DNA from: a virus
Direction: 5' to 3' (one strand)
Length of the DNA stretch: 28,612 bases
IMG/VR virus record: IMGVR_UViG_3300033153_000656
Span: 1 to 28,612 of that record
Shown here: positions 978 through 28,612 of the stretch, one piece after another
Layout of the letters: the number at the start of each line of letters is the position of its first letter
How positions within the stretch are numbered: position 1 is the stretch's first letter
Made by a program: the position numbers and the translations under genes
Notes under the pieces: model-generated
Told to the model about the DNA's origin: nothing
Database searches by the model: none
What the model saw: only the letters and a program-made list of their open reading frames with translations

Positions 978-1044
978 AAAACTGGTTCGAACCGCCGACC
1001 TTCTGGTTGCAAACCAGACGTTCTCCCAACTGAACTACGGCCCC
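972..1044 (-). tRNA. tRNA-Ala-like (anticodon UGC), possibly degenerate, overlaps tRNA-Leu
   Basis: The 5' half is canonical: acceptor strand GGGGCCG, D arm GTTC...GAAC, and anticodon arm TCTGG-TTTGCAA-CCAGA with anticodon TGC (Ala). The 3' half is poor. The T stem GGCGG against CAGTT has one mismatch and two wobbles. The acceptor 3' strand TTGCCCG pairs with the 5' strand at only about four Watson-Crick positions, and its GCCCG is the first five bases of tRNA-Leu. No CCA is encoded. It may be a decayed or recombinant tRNA, or an overlapping tRNA that needs processing or repair of its 3' end. The TAG stop of the 72-residue ORF ends on its first base. Confidence 0.6.
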
Positions 1045-1431: not shown

Positions 1432-1983
1432 ATGGACTTATTATCATTTTCACACGGGCAAACACAAAGCAAACTTTGGTTATGTGATACTATTGAACAG
1501 TATATACCAAAAGATGCCGTGGTTGCCATACTTGGATGCTGGTATAATATGTTAGGTTTTATGCTTTTAACTCGTAACCGAGACATGTATCAGCACATCT
1601 TAGGTGTAGATATTGACTCAGAGGCGATTAGAGGCGCTGACATTTTGTGTCAGGGCTTTATGTTGGGCAAAAACTCACAAATTAGAAACGTTTGTCAGAA
1701 CGCAGATACGTATAATTTGCAAGGACATAGAGTTGTTATTAACACTAGTGTAGAGCATATGAAAGACGATTGGTACAACAACGTTGATCCTGGCGCTCTA
1801 GTTTGTATTCAATCAAGTGATGTCACTGAACACAGAAAACCGTGGTTAGTAACAAATCCTTGTGTCACATTAGAAGCATTAAAAGAACGATTTCAATTTA
1901 CTGAACTTTTATTTGCTGAAACAAAATATTTTGATTACGGGAGTGCGAGTTACAATCGTTACATGATCATCGGAAAAAAATAA
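1432..1983 (+). CDS. Class I SAM-dependent methyltransferase-like protein
   Basis: A 183-residue Rossmann-type protein. A hydrophobic strand ending in AILGCWYN stands where motif I should be, but without the usual GxGxG. The strand HILGVDID ends in an acidic residue as expected for ribose binding, and VVINTSVEHM matches the post-motif IV loop (usually S-x-x-E-H). The C-terminal end (SYNRYMIIGKK) resembles the terminal strand of these folds. The substrate is unknown. Its TAATG junction gives a one-base overlap with the radical-SAM gene, so the two are translationally coupled and probably work together. No ribosome-binding site precedes the ATG. Because motif I is degenerate, it may bind SAM weakly or act as a partner subunit. 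Confidence 0.7.
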   Translation: MDLLSFSHGQTQSKLWLCDTIEQYIPKDAVVAILGCWYNMLGFMLLTRNRDMYQHILGVDIDSEAIRGADILCQGFMLGKNSQIRNVCQNADTYNLQGHRVVINTSVEHMKDDWYNNVDPGALVCIQSSDVTEHRKPWLVTNPCVTLEALKERFQFTELLFAETKYFDYGSASYNRYMIIGKK

Positions 1984-3122
1984 TGTACGATTATGCAGAC
2001 ATTAAGACAGTTCATTTAGAAATTACAGAAAAATGTAATGCGGCATGTCCTATGTGTGCAAGAAATATAAACGGCGGAGAAGATAATCCATGGCTACAAA
2101 ATGCCGAATTATCTCTCAATGATATTATTACTATATTCCCTACTGAGTTTATTAAACAAATTACGCATATGTATATGTGTGGTAACTACGGAGATCCTAT
2201 TGTTGCAAAAGATACATTAAGAGTATTCAAATATTTTAGAGAAGTTAATCCAACAATATATTTGAGCATGAATACGAATGGTTCTGCAAGACCTAAACAA
2301 TGGTGGAAAGAATTAGCAGAAATAATAGGTAACGGATATGTAATTTTTAGCATCGACGGATTAGAAGATACTAATTATTTGTATCGTAAAAACACAATAT
2401 GGGAAAAGATTATAGAAAACGCAGGATCGTTTATTGATGCCGGTGGAAATGCTCATTGGGAGTATATAGTTTTTGAACACAATGAACATCAGGTAGAAGA
2501 GGCCAGAAGACTTGCAGAGCAAATGGGTTTCCAAAAGTTTCAAGTAAAAACATCTAGTAGATTCTTTTCTAGTGTGTCTGGAAGCACTAAGTCATACATC
2601 AAAACAATCGACAGACATGGCTCTGAAATCGTCATTAGAGAGCCCAGAGGGGCGGCCTACGACAACTTATACACTAAAGAGATGTCGAGTATAGCCGAAG
2701 AAAAAGACATCATATTTCCAACAAAAAAAGAAGATTTATTAGGCAAATTAAACCCAGAATTATTTGATTCTAGGTCTCCTGTACAACAACATTACGACTC
2801 TACACCCGTTACTTGCAAAGTAAAAGAAGAAAAAAGTGTATATGTAAGTGCTGAAGGAATACTACAACCTTGCTGTTGGGTAGCAGGTCAAATGTATAAT
2901 TGGTATCATACGCCTAAAGGTAGTCAGATATGGTCTGTAATTAATGAAGTAGGAAAAGACAAAATCAATGCCCTTAATTATACGATTGAAGAAATTTTAG
3001 AGAGTGGATACTTTGATCTGATTGAAGATAGTTGGAGTAAGTCTACATGTAATGACGGTAAACTTCAAGTGTGTGCAAAGACATGTGGATCAAACGATGC
3101 CTTTGCACATCAATATATTTAA
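1983..3122 (+). CDS. Radical SAM enzyme with SPASM-like C-terminal cysteines
   Basis: A 379-residue protein. The radical-SAM cluster motif is C18-x3-C22-x2-C25 (EKCNAACPMCARN), preceded by VHLEIT and followed by an LSMNTNG strand and a VIFSIDGL strand typical of the partial TIM barrel. The C-terminal part has C278-x13-G-x4-C297, a second Cys at 298, then C356, C364 and C368. The first pair fits the SPASM pattern C-x9-15-G-x4-C, implying at least one auxiliary Fe-S cluster. Enzymes of this architecture often modify peptides or proteins, but the substrate here is unknown. It is coupled to the methyltransferase-like gene, and its 3' end overlaps the convergent peroxiredoxin gene by 4 nt. MetK, IscU and an NADP reductase encoded nearby could serve its needs for SAM, clusters and electrons. 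Confidence 0.88.
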   Translation: MYDYADIKTVHLEITEKCNAACPMCARNINGGEDNPWLQNAELSLNDIITIFPTEFIKQITHMYMCGNYGDPIVAKDTLRVFKYFREVNPTIYLSMNTNGSARPKQWWKELAEIIGNGYVIFSIDGLEDTNYLYRKNTIWEKIIENAGSFIDAGGNAHWEYIVFEHNEHQVEEARRLAEQMGFQKFQVKTSSRFFSSVSGSTKSYIKTIDRHGSEIVIREPRGAAYDNLYTKEMSSIAEEKDIIFPTKKEDLLGKLNPELFDSRSPVQQHYDSTPVTCKVKEEKSVYVSAEGILQPCCWVAGQMYNWYHTPKGSQIWSVINEVGKDKINALNYTIEEILESGYFDLIEDSWSKSTCNDGKLQVCAKTCGSNDAFAHQYI

Positions 3123-3640
3123 CCTAATAATTCGTCGCCTTCGTCCCAAGCACAACCAGTTAATCCACCTGCTTGTAATGCTTTAAGTGTTCTTAATACT
3201 TCATCTGCATTTCTGCCTGTATCTAGTGCATTGATCGATGCATGTTGAATAGTTCTGTCTTTATCAAAGATAAACGTTGCTCTATAACAAACACCTGCTT
3301 CTTCATGTACAATACCTAATTCACGTGATAATGCTAGTCCGCAGTCTGCGGCTAGAGTGTGATTGATACCGCCTATCAATGCATTCTCTTTCTTCCATGC
3401 AAGTTTACAAAACTCATTGTCGCCTGAGATACCAACAACATTAGCATGTTCTGCTAAAACGTCCATACCAGCAATCTCTGTTGGACAAACAAACGTAAAG
3501 TCTTTAGGATAAAAATAAACTACAGACCAATCTTTTTTGTGTGGTGTGTAATTTTCATGTATGTCTACTTGGACAAACTCGTTATTTTCATCAATACCCG
3601 GCAATGAGAATGCGGGAAATTTATCGCCTACTGTTTTCAA
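3119..3640 (-). CDS. Peroxiredoxin (AhpC/TSA family)
   Basis: A 173-residue thioredoxin-fold peroxidase that reduces hydroperoxides. The peroxidatic cysteine is C52 in FTFVCPTE. GRNADEVLR is the conserved downstream motif, and a GCAW motif (C163) aligns with the region where AhpC-type enzymes keep the resolving cysteine. Three further cysteines (in DNEFCKLAW, AADCGLA and GVCYRAT) are present. The start is a TTG (3640-3638) preceded by a strong AGGAGA at 3645-3650; the sequence MKTVGDKFPAFSLPG fits a family N-terminus. It is downstream of the SGNH gene on the same strand but separated by 283 nt, so it may have its own late promoter. The phage role is inferred to be protection against oxidative stress. 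Confidence 0.92.
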   Translation of the reverse strand: MKTVGDKFPAFSLPGIDENNEFVQVDIHENYTPHKKDWSVVYFYPKDFTFVCPTEIAGMDVLAEHANVVGISGDNEFCKLAWKKENALIGGINHTLAADCGLALSRELGIVHEEAGVCYRATFIFDKDRTIQHASINALDTGRNADEVLRTLKALQAGGLTGCAWDEGDELLG

Positions 3641-3860: not shown

Positions 3861-3923
3861 GATTCTTTTAACTTAATCAAAACCTACGTCTACTCGCACT
3901 CATTAGATATGTCCCCTTATTAA

Positions 3924-4883: not shown

Positions 4884-5091
4884 AACTGATCTCTTTAATA
4901 CGTTGCATAGCCTTCTTATTTATTTCTGCTTTATCTTCATTCGTAAAAATGCGCCAGTTAGCAATTTCATCTATTGTTCTACCACAACCTTGACATACTT
5001 GATGTGTTTCAAAATCTAAGTTGCATATTCCTTTGCACGGTGATTTAACAATTTTTGTCTCTGTAATCTTTGACTGCTTGTTTAATGGCAT
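4867..5091 (-). CDS. DUF1289 family protein (small four-cysteine protein)
   Basis: A 74-residue protein with the DUF1289 signature. SPCKGICNLD carries C19 and C23, VCQGCGRT carries C33 and C36, and DEIANW follows. The four cysteines form two pairs well placed to bind a metal or Fe-S cluster; the family function is not established. It overlaps the 3' end of iscU by 47 nt if the ATG at 5091 is used. No better start is visible downstream, because the next codons before the Cys motif contain only ATT. The overlap ties its translation to iscU and suggests a link with Fe-S metabolism, which is inference. Confidence 0.85.
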   Translation of the reverse strand: MPLNKQSKITETKIVKSPCKGICNLDFETHQVCQGCGRTIDEIANWRIFTNEDKAEINKKAMQRIKEISFDRGT

Positions 5092-5425
5092 CTTCCGCTA
5101 ATACCGAGCAATGGATCTTGACTGGAGGGAGTGAGAGTTCTTCCGCGAGTTCAACGTTTTTAATTGCTTCTGCTTGTTCGAGGCTTTTCCCTTTGACCCA
5201 TTCTGTGAGGAGACTGCTTGATGCAATTGCAGACCCGCACCCATACGTTTTAAACTTAGCATCTTCAATAACTCCTTCGTCATTAACTTTGATTTGCAAC
5301 CTCATCACGTCTCCGCATGCCGGTGCGCCTACCATTCCCGTACCTATACCGTCTTCGTTAGGATCCCATTTGCCAACATTACGAGGATTTTCATAATGAT
5401 CGATTACTTTATCACTATAAGCCAT
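5045..5425 (-). CDS. iscU: IscU-type Fe-S cluster assembly scaffold
   Basis: A 126-residue scaffold protein on which [2Fe-2S]/[4Fe-4S] clusters are built with sulfur from a cysteine desulfurase. Starting at ATG 5425 (MAYSDKVIDHYENPRN), the key residues fall at the classic numbering: C37, D39, C63, H105 and C106, with the LPPVK chaperone-binding motif at 99-103. Because this matches Escherichia coli IscU numbering, I prefer this ATG over an in-frame TTG three codons upstream. All ligands are intact, and so is the HscA-binding loop, so it should be able to use host IscS and HscA/HscB, which are not seen here. A 17-codon ORF with a strong ribosome-binding site overlaps its start. An extra Cys is the last residue. 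Confidence 0.96.
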   Translation of the reverse strand: MAYSDKVIDHYENPRNVGKWDPNEDGIGTGMVGAPACGDVMRLQIKVNDEGVIEDAKFKTYGCGSAIASSSLLTEWVKGKSLEQAEAIKNVELAEELSLPPVKIHCSVLAEDAIKQAVKDYRDKNC

Positions 5426-5468
5426 GAGTACCAACTCTCGTTGATACTACGTTGATAGTCTGATTCAT
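5415..5468 (-). CDS. Putative 17-residue leader peptide overlapping the iscU start
   Basis: An ATG at 5468-5466 opens MNQTINVVSTRVGTHGL and stops with TAG at 5417-5415, overlapping the first 11 nt of iscU. It is preceded at 7 nt by AAAGGAG (5482-5476), the best ribosome-binding site in this unit, whereas iscU itself has only GAGAG at a 9-nt spacing. This arrangement suggests ribosomes load on the leader and reinitiate at iscU. It is not a recognised family and could be an unconserved coupling ORF. Confidence 0.5.
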   Translation of the reverse strand: MNQTINVVSTRVGTHGL

Positions 5469-5490: not shown

Positions 5491-6624
5491 CTATTTATTC
5501 TTAACTGTTTTCTTCTTTGGCTTTTCTTCTGGGAACAAGTCGAGTTTTTCCCAAGGTAAGTATTCTTTTCCGAAGTGACCGTAATTTGTAGTCGCTCCGT
5601 ATATAGGGGAAAATAGATCAAATCTATCAATGATGCCTTTAGGTGATAAGTCTACGTTATCTGTAATCCATTTAGTTAAATCTCTACTATCTCTATCACT
5701 TTCTACATAAACACTTGTTGGTTGTTCTACACCAATTGCATAACTTAATTGAATGTTAGCCCAATCTGCTTGTCCACTTGCTACAATATTTTTTGCAAGA
5801 TAACGAGCCATATATGCCGCTGATCTGTCTACTTTAGATGGGTCTTTTCCACTAAATGCTCCTCCACCATGAGGCGCCATACCACCATATGTGTCTACTA
5901 TAATTTTTCTACCAGTCAGACCTGAATCTCCGTCAGGTCCACCAATAACAAATCTACCTGTTGGATTAATTAAGTATTGCGTGTTTTCATCTAAAAGTTC
6001 TTCTGGTAATGTTTTCTGAATTACTTCTTGTATCTGTGCCCTCACAGTCTCTATATCGACCTGCTCTACGTGTTGTGTAGAACAAACTACCTTATCGATG
6101 CGTTTAACTGTGTTATCGTCATTATATTCTACAGTGACTTGTGACTTAGAATCAGGACCCAACCAAGGAAGCATACCATTCTTTCTAATAACAGAAAGCA
6201 TTTCTACGATTCTATGAGAGTAATACAAAGGTGCGGGCATATATGTTTCAGTATCTTTAGTTGCATAACCGAACATGATACCTTGGTCACCTGCGCCAAA
6301 TGTATCTGTACCTAATGCAATGTCAGGAGATTGTCCGTGCAACAGATTAGAAATTGTTAAATTGTTCCAATGAAATCCTTCTTGCTCGTATCCTATATTT
6401 TTTACTACTCTGCGTACAAGATATTCAACATCTAAACTATCGATTTGTCCTTTATATTCACCTGCAACTACTACTTGATTAGTAGTAACTAACGTTTCAC
6501 AGGCACAACGTAGAGTAGGATCTTTATGTTGCATAAACGAATCAAGTATAGCATCACTGATTGCATCTGCAACTTTATCCGGGTGTCCTTCAGAGACACT
6601 CTCACTCGTAAAATAATAACTCAT
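5491..6624 (-). CDS. metK: S-adenosylmethionine synthetase
   Basis: A 377-residue methionine adenosyltransferase, close to the usual ~384. It makes SAM from methionine and ATP. The N-terminal SEGHPDKVADAISDA carries H14, D16 and K17, GAGDQGIMFGYA is the signature 1 hexapeptide region, and GGGAFSGKDPSKVDRS is the phosphate-binding loop (signature 2). All three expected subdomains are present without gaps. The C-terminus has a lysine-rich tail (EKPKKKTVKNK). ATG at 6624 has AAAGGA 8 nt upstream. It is the first gene after the promoter at 6643-6671 and is followed by the leader ORF and iscU. It should raise SAM supply for methylation and radical-SAM chemistry during infection. Confidence 0.98.
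   Translation of the reverse strand: MSYYFTSESVSEGHPDKVADAISDAILDSFMQHKDPTLRCACETLVTTNQVVVAGEYKGQIDSLDVEYLVRRVVKNIGYEQEGFHWNNLTISNLLHGQSPDIALGTDTFGAGDQGIMFGYATKDTETYMPAPLYYSHRIVEMLSVIRKNGMLPWLGPDSKSQVTVEYNDDNTVKRIDKVVCSTQHVEQVDIETVRAQIQEVIQKTLPEELLDENTQYLINPTGRFVIGGPDGDSGLTGRKIIVDTYGGMAPHGGGAFSGKDPSKVDRSAAYMARYLAKNIVASGQADWANIQLSYAIGVEQPTSVYVESDRDSRDLTKWITDNVDLSPKGIIDRFDLFSPIYGATTNYGHFGKEYLPWEKLDLFPEEKPKKKTVKNK
5492..5499 (-). promoter_or_regulatory. Candidate late promoter (AATAAATA) before the iscU leader
   Basis: The minus-strand octamer GAATAAATAGAC lies at the very end of metK and differs by one base from TATAAATA. Transcription starting about 7-10 nt downstream would place the AAAGGAG ribosome-binding site near the 5' end of a short leader, giving iscU and its neighbours a late transcript independent of metK. 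Confidence 0.4.
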
Positions 6625-12152: not shown

Positions 12153-14459
12153 TTATAATTTACATGCTTCACAGTCATCATCATCAAATGCTGGCTCGTC
12201 AATGTATTGTTTTGCTATTTCTACTATTTGTTCATCTTGTCTTTTGACTCCTGCTTTATTTATTAAAGAATAATAAAAAGTCTTAAGTCCCCATTGATGT
12301 GCCTGCATTAAGTTCTTTGCGATCAGTGTTGTAGGCACTTTCTGATCTTTAAAATGTGCTGGATTGTAAAATGTATTTGTTGATATGCTTTGATCTACAT
12401 AAGCCGCTAATACTGCCGCAGTCTTTAAATATGCATCACAATCTTGTTGCTCCCACATCAATTGATAAGAATTTCTTACACGTTTGATATGATAGTCTGG
12501 TACTACTTGTGTGAGTGATCCTGCTTTACTTTCTTTAACAGAGATTAAACTCATTGGCATTTCAATACCGTTTGTAGAATTGATAACTACACTAGATGAT
12601 TCTACTGGAGCAATTGCCATCAAAGTTGCATTTCTGACACCATGTTCTTTCATTTCTTTTCGTAATGCTTCCCAATCACACTCTGGCTTAAAGTTTGCTA
12701 GTTTATTAACACCTTTTGCTCTACGTTCCCAAGGGAACTTACCTTTACCATACCATGTCTTATCACTATCTAAACATTTACCTCTTTCTTTTGCTAGTTC
12801 TACTGTTGCTTCAGTTAAGAAAAATGCTTGATGTTCCATCCAAGTTTTAACATCTTGTAGTGCATCTTTGTCACCATATATGTAGTCACGTTTTGCATGC
12901 CAATATGCTAAATTAGTAACACCAATACCCAAAGGTTGTATTTCATCGTTACTTAATTGACTCTGAATCGATAAGAAATCTTGGTAATCTAAGATATTAC
13001 ACAAACTACGTTGTAGTACACGACATGCTCTACGCATGTCCTCAGGGTTTCTGAATGCTCCCCAGTTGATCGATCCCAATGTACACAATGCAATACGTCC
13101 CTCATCGTCATCTAAACGTTTAAAAGGCTTTGTAGGTAATAATATCTCACAACATAGATTGCTTTGATAAATTGGATGTTCAGTAGTATCAAACGGACCT
13201 TGGTTAGATACGTTGTCTACATACACTAAGTAAATTCTTCCTGTATCTGTTCTTTCTTTTAATACACCAGATTTAAATACTTCTTCTGCTGACATTACTT
13301 TCTTACTGAGGCTACGGGACCTTTCATATTTGAGATACAGTTCCTCAAATTTAGCAGTATCTGAATAGAATGCTTCATACAAATCAGGCACTTCGTTTGG
13401 ATCAAAGAATGTAATGTTTTCTTTGTTTTTAAAACGTTTCCAAAAGAATGCATTAAGACATACGCCATAATCCATATGTCTTACTCTTGTTTCTTCAGTA
13501 CCTTGATTGTTCTTTAGTACGATTAAATCATCAAATTGATGATGCCAAATAGGATAAAAGACTGTAGCACTAGCATTACGAATGCCACCTTGTGAGCATG
13601 AACGTAAGTCTCCGAACCACTTCTTTAAGAAGGGTATCATTCCCGTATGCATGATCTCTCCGCCTCTTATAGGCGCTCCTAGGGGTCTTAAACGACCTAT
13701 TTCAAGACCTATACCAGCACGTTTACTAGCATACTTAGCCATCATTTCACCTGATGCAAAGATACTATCTAAGTCATCATCACTTTTAATTAATACACAA
13801 GAACTGAACTGTTTAGTAGGTGTTCCTAATCCAGCAAGTACAGGAGTTGCTAGTGTAAATAACCCATCACTAGCACAGTTATAATATTCTTTAATATATT
13901 TCATTCTTGCTGATAAAGGTTCTTCTTTATGAAATACTGTTGCGGCCGCAAATATCTGTCCTGTTGATCTGTTTCTGACTAGATATTTACCTATCATTTG
14001 TTCGATGGCGGCATAAGATAGGTTTTCATCTTTCTCGTGGTTGATGATCTTTTCCATTTTGTTCCAATCATCTTCAGAATACCACTCAAGCAAGTCTGTA
14101 GTATATAAACCTGATTCTATATTCTTCTTAACAATTTCATATAGATGAGGTGGTTGATAGTCTCCGTATACATCTTTACGCAACATAGATAAACGTTGTT
14201 TGCCGGCTACAAATTGATAATTAGTATGGCCTGTTTCTGGTGCTTGTTCTTCATCGATTAAATCAACGATAGCACGTAAAGTAAGCCCATCAATTTCTCT
14301 TGTAGTAATACCGTCAAAGAAGTGTGGTTGTGATGTGATCTCAATCATTGATTGTGATACATCTGATACACCTTCACATACTTTTGCTACTTGGGCTTGC
14401 CACTTTTCTAACTCTAATTCTACTACCTTTCCTGATCTTTTAGTGACTTTAATGTTCAT
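12153..14459 (-). CDS. nrdA: Class I ribonucleotide reductase large (catalytic) subunit
   Basis: A 768-residue alpha subunit that reduces ribonucleoside diphosphates. An ATP-cone-like domain spans about residues 1-90 (KRSGKVVELELEKW). Catalytic residues are in place: C221 and C459 (redox pair), N434, C436 and E438 in SNLCCE, the radical-transfer pair Y729-Y730, and C-terminal C763 and C766 (CEAC) that relay electrons from glutaredoxin. It closely parallels Escherichia coli numbering (225, 462, 437/439/441, 730/731), so no intein or gap is present. AGGT precedes the ATG at 14459. It forms a unit with nrdB and glutaredoxin. Confidence 0.98.
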   Translation of the reverse strand: MNIKVTKRSGKVVELELEKWQAQVAKVCEGVSDVSQSMIEITSQPHFFDGITTREIDGLTLRAIVDLIDEEQAPETGHTNYQFVAGKQRLSMLRKDVYGDYQPPHLYEIVKKNIESGLYTTDLLEWYSEDDWNKMEKIINHEKDENLSYAAIEQMIGKYLVRNRSTGQIFAAATVFHKEEPLSARMKYIKEYYNCASDGLFTLATPVLAGLGTPTKQFSSCVLIKSDDDLDSIFASGEMMAKYASKRAGIGLEIGRLRPLGAPIRGGEIMHTGMIPFLKKWFGDLRSCSQGGIRNASATVFYPIWHHQFDDLIVLKNNQGTEETRVRHMDYGVCLNAFFWKRFKNKENITFFDPNEVPDLYEAFYSDTAKFEELYLKYERSRSLSKKVMSAEEVFKSGVLKERTDTGRIYLVYVDNVSNQGPFDTTEHPIYQSNLCCEILLPTKPFKRLDDDEGRIALCTLGSINWGAFRNPEDMRRACRVLQRSLCNILDYQDFLSIQSQLSNDEIQPLGIGVTNLAYWHAKRDYIYGDKDALQDVKTWMEHQAFFLTEATVELAKERGKCLDSDKTWYGKGKFPWERRAKGVNKLANFKPECDWEALRKEMKEHGVRNATLMAIAPVESSSVVINSTNGIEMPMSLISVKESKAGSLTQVVPDYHIKRVRNSYQLMWEQQDCDAYLKTAAVLAAYVDQSISTNTFYNPAHFKDQKVPTTLIAKNLMQAHQWGLKTFYYSLINKAGVKRQDEQIVEIAKQYIDEPAFDDDDCEACKL

Positions 14460-15016: not shown

Positions 15017-15636
15017 TAGTTTTTACCTACTAGAACTTCGACTACACCTTCTGGTGTATCACCGTTGTAGGCTGAAATTGCTTTACCGATAATTGTACCT
15101 GGCTTAACATTATCTTCATCAACTGGGCGACATCCATATCCTGCTTCTTCAGAGGTTACGATTAGATCACCTTTGTTGATAGGTCCTATAACTTTACATG
15201 GTACACGTCCAATCAATGCTAGTTCTACAACAAACTCTCCTTCGCCCGCAGAACATTCTGCGTTATAGACTTGAGCAGGATTAGTTGTAACAATACCTGC
15301 TACTGCTGAACATCCATGTGCTCCTGTTGTTGATAATTCTGCATCTCCGCCGAATACTAATACTGTTCCTGGCTCATAATCTCTATCTGCTGTGTATTTC
15401 TCCGCCAAGTCAGCATATGTTGCGTTAAGAGTTGAACCTGATGTCAGTGTATAGTCACCAGTAATTGTACCTGCTGTTGCCGCTGATCCTGTAGTGATCG
15501 TAGTAGACTGCATTGTACCAGCATTCATAGTTCCTGAAACAGTTAGTCCTGTTAAAGTACCTGTACTTGTAATGTTGGGCTGTGCCGCAGTTGTTACAGT
15601 ACCTGCTGTAGTTGCTGATCCTGCACTTCCTGCCGT
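15016..15636 (-). CDS. C-terminal part of tail fibre F in the shifted frame
   Basis: This frame has a TAG at 15639-15637 and is open from there to the stop at 15016. From codon GGA at 15630 it reads as a natural continuation of fibre F: more TTAGTVTTAAQPNITS repeats, then the module NATYADLAEKYTADRDYEPG and a beta-rich end finishing VVEVLVGKN. An ADLAEKY-type C-terminal module is common at the end of phage fibre and appendage proteins. Read alone, the first Met is at 15528, but that would remove only repeat sequence and leave no independent protein start; no ribosome-binding site is obvious there. Together with 15631-19165 and one skipped base it makes a 1382-residue protein. Confidence 0.75.
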   Translation of the reverse strand, partial: TAGSAGSATTAGTVTTAAQPNITSTGTLTGLTVSGTMNAGTMQSTTITTGSAATAGTITGDYTLTSGSTLNATYADLAEKYTADRDYEPGTVLVFGGDAELSTTGAHGCSAVAGIVTTNPAQVYNAECSAGEGEFVVELALIGRVPCKVIGPINKGDLIVTSEEAGYGCRPVDEDNVKPGTIIGKAISAYNGDTPEGVVEVLVGKN

Positions 15637-22460: not shown

Positions 22461-23576
22461 TTAGTCTGGTACATATGTCCCCATTAAATTCACACTTGTA
22501 CTGCTATTGACAGGTGTGGCTCGTAGCAATACATTTGTACCGCTCATAGTAGTATTTAGTGTTACTAAGTCCGAACCAGTAGTCGATAATGAACCATATA
22601 CAGTCATAATCGGAGTCACTCCGTCATGTACTAATAAAACTTCTAATGCTTGATAACCTGTGTTATCTGAAACTTTCATTGTGTATTTTGCTGATCGATA
22701 GTCTGATGCTCCAAACGTGTCAATTGTAGTGTTTGCACTACCAACTGATACTGCTGTTCTACTGCTATAAAAGTCTTCGACTGAAAGTGTCGTAGAATTT
22801 AGATTGTCAGCAGAAACGTTTCCTCTTGCTGTCAGTGTTTTTCCAGTACCACACATTACAATGTTTGCTTGTAATCCGATGTTTACATCAGAAATACCTG
22901 ATGTAAATACACCTGCTGTAGTTGTACTTGTATCTACTGATATAGTACCTGATCCAGGAGGAGTACCATATTGTACAGTTCCTGATGTAGCAATGAAATT
23001 GTTACCTTGAACATTACCTGTTGCAGTCAGTTTATGTACTCCAGAAGCATCATCAAACGTTAAGTTTGAAGTCGCACCGAAACTTCCTTGATTATTAAAC
23101 TGAATTTGTGTGTTTGCGCCTGCCGCTGATTCACCAAAAGTGATTGCATCGCCATTTGCATAATAATAATTGTCAGTTTTAATACCTAAAGGTACGACAT
23201 TACCTGTCGTAGTTAAGACACCGCCTCCTGACATTGTAAATACATCAGCATTTCCAGAAACACCCATTGTGACTGCTGATCCTGATGTGTCTATAGATAC
23301 ATTAGAATTACCATGTGCTATTGCATATGTATGAAAATCATCAGTACCATCGAATATAAATTGTCCACCGTCTCCGTTAGTCATGACCATAGCGCCGTTT
23401 GCGGCTTCTGCTATTGTACCACCACCTAAGAATATAGAAGTTCCTGCAAGATATAGATCATTCCAACGATAATTTGCTGATCCTAAATCGTATGTGACAT
23501 TTGCACTAGGAATAATACTTCCAGTAGGATTAATATTTCCTGGTACATCTAAAACCCACTTCGATAAGAATACCTT
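22461..23576 (-). CDS. Tail fibre C, main part (second frame)
   Basis: This frame is open from a TAG at 23579-23577 to the stop at 22461. It lacks its own convincing start: the first Met in frame (23390) lies inside a conserved fibre segment. Upstream of that Met the frame reads LDVPGNINPTG, then YDLGSANYRWNDLYLAGTS, the widely shared motif of phage fibres, so translation must enter from the other frame near 23551-23557. Downstream come NYYYANGDAITFGE, NTQIQFNNQGSFGATSNLTF and the C-terminal SDYRSAKYTM, GYQALEVLLVHDG, VYGSL domain shared with fibre D. Joined with 23530-23919 minus one base, it gives a 485-residue protein. Confidence 0.78.
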   Translation of the reverse strand, partial: KVFLSKWVLDVPGNINPTGSIIPSANVTYDLGSANYRWNDLYLAGTSIFLGGGTIAEAANGAMVMTNGDGGQFIFDGTDDFHTYAIAHGNSNVSIDTSGSAVTMGVSGNADVFTMSGGGVLTTTGNVVPLGIKTDNYYYANGDAITFGESAAGANTQIQFNNQGSFGATSNLTFDDASGVHKLTATGNVQGNNFIATSGTVQYGTPPGSGTISVDTSTTTAGVFTSGISDVNIGLQANIVMCGTGKTLTARGNVSADNLNSTTLSVEDFYSSRTAVSVGSANTTIDTFGASDYRSAKYTMKVSDNTGYQALEVLLVHDGVTPIMTVYGSLSTTGSDLVTLNTTMSGTNVLLRATPVNSSTSVNLMGTYVPD

Positions 23577-26851: not shown

Positions 26852-28252
26852 TTAGTTACTCGCAGATTCTAATGATAAGGCTGTTATCGATTGACCACTT
26901 GTTAATTTGATACGAACATAAATTTCATTAGTTGATGTACTAGATGAACTTACTGTACCAAAAGTAGCAGTTGTTGATTTATTTGTTTGAGCAGATCCTG
27001 TAGGTATAACGCCGCCTAACGCACACCCGTTTGAACCATTACCACCAGCGCCTGTGTTAGCACCGGGGACACCTGCTCCCGCGTAAGATGTTGACATATC
27101 AACCCAACCGTTCAATGAAGATGCTGAGTCAATTGTTGATCCGGGTACTGCTACCCAACAACCTGCCAATGTTCCTGAAAATTTAACATCAAACTTCGAT
27201 GTTGATGTTCTTACAAATTTGAATGTAAAATATTGTGCTCCTGATCTACCTGCTGATAAGTCAGGTCCTACTGGTAAATAACCAGAAGAATAATCAGTTT
27301 CATCGTGGCTTAATACATCACCTACGACTGTTGAGTCGTATGTCTCTAATGTTGAAGTCTCACTGTTAAACACAGTTGCACTTGCAGAGAAACTAGGTGT
27401 ATCAGTTGAACCTGGGTTTTCAATACGTTGTGCTAACCCTGATCCAGAACCAATTGTTGAACCGATATAAACGTTTGCTTCTTCAATTCTACTTGCAGAA
27501 GATGCAGTACCGGTCTTATAAAGAACTGTGCTTCCAGGATTGAATGTCTGTGCACCTGTTGCATAAGAGTTGAAGACTGATACTGATGGACCCGATGCAC
27601 TTGAACCGAATCCTGAAATAATAGATGCTGTAGTTGTTACTGCTTGACTTCCTGAAGATACATGTAAGTCTTGTGCTAATGGAGTTGTTACTCCAGCAGT
27701 TGCATATGTAACACTACTTGGTGAACCAAATGCTCCGCCACTTGATCCTGTTACGAATGTATCACTTGTTGGGTACATGTTACCTGATAGTCTGTTAACA
27801 TTAAATGCAATAGCAAAATCGTTTGTGTTGTTATAATGCGGTACAGTTGAACTGTATGTATAACTAGGGCCACCAGGAGCAGTAATAGATGTTGATGAAA
27901 ACTGAGGTGTACCAGGATTCGATGAATCATAGTACCAAGTTTCTTTGTTCGTAGATGCTGTTGCTGTATCATCTATTAATACTTCGTTCCAACCATCTGA
28001 TACAGTACCTGATGCATCTGCTGTAAAGACTGACCAGAAGCCTGCCGCTACACTTGAATCAACTACATTGTAGTCTACGTTGTTTGTAATAATCAGATCA
28101 GTGTAAGTTCCGTTGCCATCTAAAGAAGTAGTTAAAGTTCTGCTACCTGCGGCTGAACCATTCTTTTGAACAGAGATTGTTCCTGAATCACCTGGGCCAG
28201 TATTTGTCCATTCTGTATGATGATGTACTTGCAATAGTAATGCTTTGTCCAC
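26852..28252 (-). CDS. Tail fibre A, C-terminal part (second frame)
   Basis: Read from the first usable start (GTG 28252) this gives 466 residues, but the first ~14 (through VHHHTEW) are out-of-frame relative to the upstream fibre, which enters this frame near 28207-28213. The genuine part begins TNTGPGDSGTISVQKNGSAA and runs through SLDGNGTYTDLIITNN, GWNEVLIDDTA, YSSTVPHYNN and MYPTSDTFVTGSSGGAFG to the end LTSGQSITALSLESASN. It has no repeat shaft, and resembles the large distal domain of a family of marine-phage structural proteins as I recall them. It ends 2 nt before fibre B. Confidence 0.75.
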   Translation of the reverse strand: MDKALLLQVHHHTEWTNTGPGDSGTISVQKNGSAAGSRTLTTSLDGNGTYTDLIITNNVDYNVVDSSVAAGFWSVFTADASGTVSDGWNEVLIDDTATASTNKETWYYDSSNPGTPQFSSTSITAPGGPSYTYSSTVPHYNNTNDFAIAFNVNRLSGNMYPTSDTFVTGSSGGAFGSPSSVTYATAGVTTPLAQDLHVSSGSQAVTTTASIISGFGSSASGPSVSVFNSYATGAQTFNPGSTVLYKTGTASSASRIEEANVYIGSTIGSGSGLAQRIENPGSTDTPSFSASATVFNSETSTLETYDSTVVGDVLSHDETDYSSGYLPVGPDLSAGRSGAQYFTFKFVRTSTSKFDVKFSGTLAGCWVAVPGSTIDSASSLNGWVDMSTSYAGAGVPGANTGAGGNGSNGCALGGVIPTGSAQTNKSTTATFGTVSSSSTSTNEIYVRIKLTSGQSITALSLESASN

Positions 28253-28612
28253 CTGGGAAATCTGCTGGACTTGATGGAACTAATTTACCTAATACATTGT
28301 TTAACTGAGCAATTGAATTAGAGACCGATGATGCTGTTGTTAAAGTTAAAGCATTAGATGTTAAAGATCCTTGAGTCGGAGTTCCTAATGCTATGTCGAT
28401 AGCACCAGATGTACTAGGTACAGTAACAATACCTGTTACGTTCAGTGTACCTGCAACATTTACTCCTGTTGAAGTAATGTTTGCTTCAAGTCCGCCACCA
28501 ACATTTAATTCAATGTTGCCATCTGCGACTGGTATACGAACATTTGATGTTCCATTTTGAATACCTGTTGCATCAATACCTGTTAATGCAGAACCGTCAC
28601 CGTAATACTTAC
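28188..28612 (-). CDS. Tail fibre A, upstream part (first frame, truncated by window edge)
   Basis: Open from the right edge of the window to a TGA at 28190-28188. It reads YYGDGSALTGIDATGIQNGT, NVRIPVADGNIELNV, GTLNVTGIVTVPSTSGAID, SIAQLNNVLGKLVPSSPADF and PGGQSITIASTSSYRM, then runs out as DKYWPR. The continuing domain is in the next frame (26852-28252). The ADFPGGQSITIASTSSYRM segment is a natural lead-in to the GPGDSGT domain, so both halves belong to one gene whose 5' part lies outside the window. Confidence 0.75.
   Translation of the reverse strand, partial: KYYGDGSALTGIDATGIQNGTSNVRIPVADGNIELNVGGGLEANITSTGVNVAGTLNVTGIVTVPSTSGAIDIALGTPTQGSLTSNALTLTTASSVSNSIAQLNNVLGKLVPSSPADFPGGQSITIASTSSYRMDKYWPR
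28493..28608 (-). repeat. Fibre repeat shared by A and B, copy in A
   Basis: Counterpart of 26060-26175, encoding YGDGSALTGIDATGIQNGTS and NVRIPVADGNIELNV. The extent is cut by the window edge. Confidence 0.85.

Follow-up and report, generated by a model that had tools for sequence, protein, structure and literature searches.

Fibre A and its relatives

Fibre A resembles described tail proteins of PHROG 8578 in phiCbK-like phages of Caulobacter and Brevundimonas, with an identity of 30-36%. In the window, by which we mean the whole 28,612-base virus contig IMGVR_UViG_3300033153_000656, it is encoded on the minus strand, at the contig's end. A Pfam search of the fibres gave no match. The intact fibre A of a sister contig matches PHROG 8578 over residues 178-722 (E = 8e-95), and the window copy shows a match to this tail-protein family, whose function is unknown, over most of the protein. 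Homologues from IMG/VR belong to the same protein family. They are exemplified by the 725-aa protein of sister contig IMGVR_UViG_3300033143_000287 (L001), which was the top match in an IMG/VR search with the downstream part of fibre A.

In the window, the gene is present in two pieces. The 5′-proximal piece (28188..28610, minus strand) is an ORF open at its 5′ end, with the start codon beyond the end of the contig, and its frame (28610..28188) terminates with ...IASTSSYRM-DKYWPR-stop. The downstream frame (ORF 28252..26852, minus strand), which reads ...HTEW-TNTGPGDSGT..., is offset by +1 relative to the upstream frame, and the 3′ piece proper occupies 26852..28207. Alignment to L001 and to the homologues mapped the junction to 28207..28208 on the minus strand (window 28208|28207), which confirms the +1 frame change between SSYRM and GPGDSGT reported in the first-pass annotation. 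The two pieces are identical to L001 over 405 of 405 bases before the junction and 1356 of 1356 bases after it, in residues as well. Exactly 110 bp of L001 (positions 5891-6000) lie between these flanks and are absent from the window. In L001, this segment supplies the 37 residues that link SSYRM to TNTGPGDSGT, and the gene is intact as a single 725-aa ORF (L001 5179-7353). As 110 = 36 × 3 + 2, the suspicion raised in the same annotation, namely a deletion of non-multiple-of-three length, proved correct, and a single-base error at fibre A is ruled out. The junction is blunt, with zero microhomology and no base common to both edges.

The IMG/VR search yielded 80 loci, L001 included. The frame is open across the junction site in all of them, and 34-37 residues separate the two motifs, in agreement with the few dozen that the first-pass annotation gave for related proteins. 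Several positions in the spacer hardly vary (Q, D, N, T, G, R, Y). The alignment of homologues across the junction, which had been proposed as a check, thus located the missing residues, and the intervening segment is present in 80 of 80 loci. The window differs from the IMG/VR homologues in lacking the 37-residue segment; its copy has no continuous frame running from SSYRM through 34-37 residues to TNTGPGDSGT and is the only broken one at this site. Because the flanks match L001 exactly and all 80 homologues are open at the site, neither the frame change nor the deletion can be put down to chance.

Losses elsewhere in the window and in its sister contigs

Together, four sister contigs from other metagenomes that represent the same virus (3300033143_000287, 3300033144_002296, 3300033155_000623 and 3300033388_000810) span the whole window, with 3-15 substitutions relative to it in every 11-19 kb (~0.03-0.1%). 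The comparison revealed five further losses in the window, all on the minus strand. At the second junction, the frame of fibre B is broken at 23553..23554 by the absence of 95 bp, and the intact ORF of ~517 aa is found in a related locus (L175). The third junction breaks fibre C at 15632..15634, where 44 bp present in the sister contigs are missing, with a 1-bp ambiguity; the fibre C part of the homologue survey was left out because it was confounded by paralogues. In the ribonucleotide reductase alpha gene, 27 bp are missing in frame at 13951..13952, which removes nine residues of YETPQVRYMI. The enzyme is of class Ia, and in E. coli NrdA the corresponding stretch is IYESAQFLYIL. The nine residues are present in 46 other homologues and absent only from the window among the 47 copies. 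Relative to the sister contigs, a small intergenic ORF lacks ~76 bp at 3878..3880, and 25 bp are missing at 983..984, comprising 15 nt at the 3′ end of tRNA-Ala, CCA included, and the spacer that separates it from tRNA-Leu. Since the latter loss takes the 3′ end of tRNA-Ala, ARAGORN returns an Ala gene call that overlaps the next tRNA. In total, the window carries six private losses (110, 95, 44, 27, ~76 and 25 bp), which hit three fibre genes, the ribonucleotide reductase gene, the small ORF and the tRNA.

Some other genes of the window deserve mention. From reading the sequences, the genes at 172-1029, 3119-3640, 5045-5434 and 5491-6624 look like ferredoxin/flavodoxin-NADP reductase, peroxiredoxin, an IscU-like iron-sulphur scaffold and S-adenosylmethionine synthetase, a metabolic set unusual for a phage. 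A radical SAM protein (PHROG 21308) is encoded at 1983-3122 and adjoins a 183-aa gene without a Pfam match.

Three of the four sisters have private losses as well. Three stretches (36, 24 and 72 bp) are missing from contig 3300033155, one (60 bp) from 3300033144 and two (34 and 15 bp) from 3300033388; contig 3300033143 showed none wherever another contig overlaps it. At least twelve distinct losses are therefore present among five assemblies of this virus, none of them common to two contigs. Where a third contig of the virus overlaps a loss, it carries the longer form. The 110-, 95- and 72-bp events are covered by just two contigs of this virus, and their polarity was set by more distant homologues for the 110- and 95-bp events and by assumption for the 72-bp event.

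The small intergenic ORF lies beside a 319-aa gene (window 3879-3916; loci L251 and L252). Here, three sister contigs have three different private losses, of ~76 bp, 24 bp and, 0.1 kb off, 60 bp, and assembly of this region may be particularly difficult. At the ends of 3300033155 and 3300033144 (loci L271-L274), which are reverse-oriented, the alignment stops at 31016 and 25950, respectively. The last 751 bases of 3300033155, beyond position 31016, have no match to 3300033144 and may represent a strain difference or another assembly fault.

Junction properties and the origin of the losses

The losses span 15-110 bp, are deletion-only, and all their joins are direct. No indels shorter than 15 bp were found in ~99 kb of pairwise alignment of this virus's contigs; natural indels are mostly short. 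Over the 12 events, the mean microhomology was 0.83, compared with 0.77 for random breakpoints (P = 0.44), and only three junctions share at least 2 bp, none more than 3. Recombination or slippage at repeats was accordingly rejected, with zero microhomology at fibre A and the chance level over all events. Hairpin-mediated deletion was rejected as well: the deleted stretches are not unusually structured (mean folding z ~0.1), the tRNA site alone being structured. Among the clearly coding events, four of eight are multiples of three, which gives no clear frame bias.

As a control, we used 80 near-identical locus pairs from other metagenomes, each with <0.5% divergence but at least one mismatch, over a total aligned length of 586 kb. 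They gave 5 pairwise gap counts of at least 10 bp, corresponding to three distinct events. The sister cluster gave ~21 gap counts in 99 kb, about 25 times the control rate, in a comparison that within these metagenomes covered the contigs of one virus. On the basis of this rate, the defect goes with this group of data sets.

We consider, with a probability of roughly 0.87, that the change of frame in fibre A reflects 110 bp lost from the assembled record, that it is not a functional frameshift and that the virus itself probably has no such deletion. The record truly contains the frame change but the virus most likely does not, and the gaps most likely arise from assembly or processing of this metagenome set. 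The losses are private and contradicted by near-identical contigs, and they are blind to gene function and to frame, falling in fibres, ribonucleotide reductase, tRNA and intergenic sequence alike. A processing artefact fits this pattern, which is private, blunt, deletion-only and frame-blind and has no short indels; in these respects, and in affecting several contigs, the losses resemble gaps or collapsed scaffold joins in assembled metagenomes. Unlike typical assembly gaps, they are not marked by Ns, and no runs of more than three Ns occur in the loci checked. De Bruijn assemblers normally do not join blunt ends without Ns, which counts against an artefact. The most likely source of such blunt losses would be unresolved scaffold gaps whose two ends were joined directly, with nothing placed between them. 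Stripping of Ns, if it were the cause, would have to predate deposition, as isolated Ns are kept in other loci of the collection. A literature search by metagenome identifiers found nothing on the source metagenomes, their assembler or sample type.

Were the 110 bp truly deleted, from the virus or from a sub-population of it, fibre A would be truncated and non-functional. The record does read this way, with an exact junction and clean flanks; however, six independent damaging events would be needed in one 28.6-kb genome, including those in ribonucleotide reductase and tRNA-Ala. The sister contigs are ~0.03-0.1% different, yet three of four carry other sets of losses with none in common, and a scan of other viral contigs did not recover the 26-base string of the fibre A junction. 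One would not expect a real lytic phage to have six separate blunt deletions, most of them damaging, within 28.6 kb when near-identical sisters are without them, and we regard a viral deletion as unlikely. For the same reasons, that is, five further similar losses in the window, private ones in three of four sisters and random blunt joins, the "true rearrangement" suggested in the first-pass annotation was not upheld. Chimeras formed during amplification or library preparation (phi29 MDA or reverse-transcriptase template switching) and fixed into the contigs would likewise yield private deletions per sample. MDA chimeras are mostly inverted, with 2-21 bp of complementarity, and direct joins less than 10 kb apart have at least 2 bp in common in ~91% of cases (PMC1855051); their overlaps peak at 6 nt (PMC4595205). 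Here, 12 of 12 joins are direct and 9 of them share less than 2 bp, so that this origin is very unlikely. Still more doubtful is a viral population that truly carries many short blunt deletions differing per lineage, for example through cutting and rejoining of phage DNA by a host nuclease or a defence system. Programmed ribosomal frameshifting or other recoding in fibre A would draw on the ~65-nt overlap of the two frames (28188-28252), but this overlap exists only through the absence of the 110 bp. A single frame is found in all 80 relatives and the frame change is conserved in none of them; with the intact gene of L001, programmed frameshifting is refuted, and the chance of any recoding is negligible.

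Reading of these records

If the fibre A loss is an artefact of assembly or processing, the real virus would make fibre A as one unbroken protein of 725 aa. The case serves mainly as a caution. On these records, automated gene calling will split the fibre genes and misread the tRNA and ribonucleotide reductase. Until the reads have been checked, no frame break in the window or in the sister contigs 3300033144, 3300033155 and 3300033388 should be taken as evidence of a pseudogene, of frameshifting or of rearrangement.
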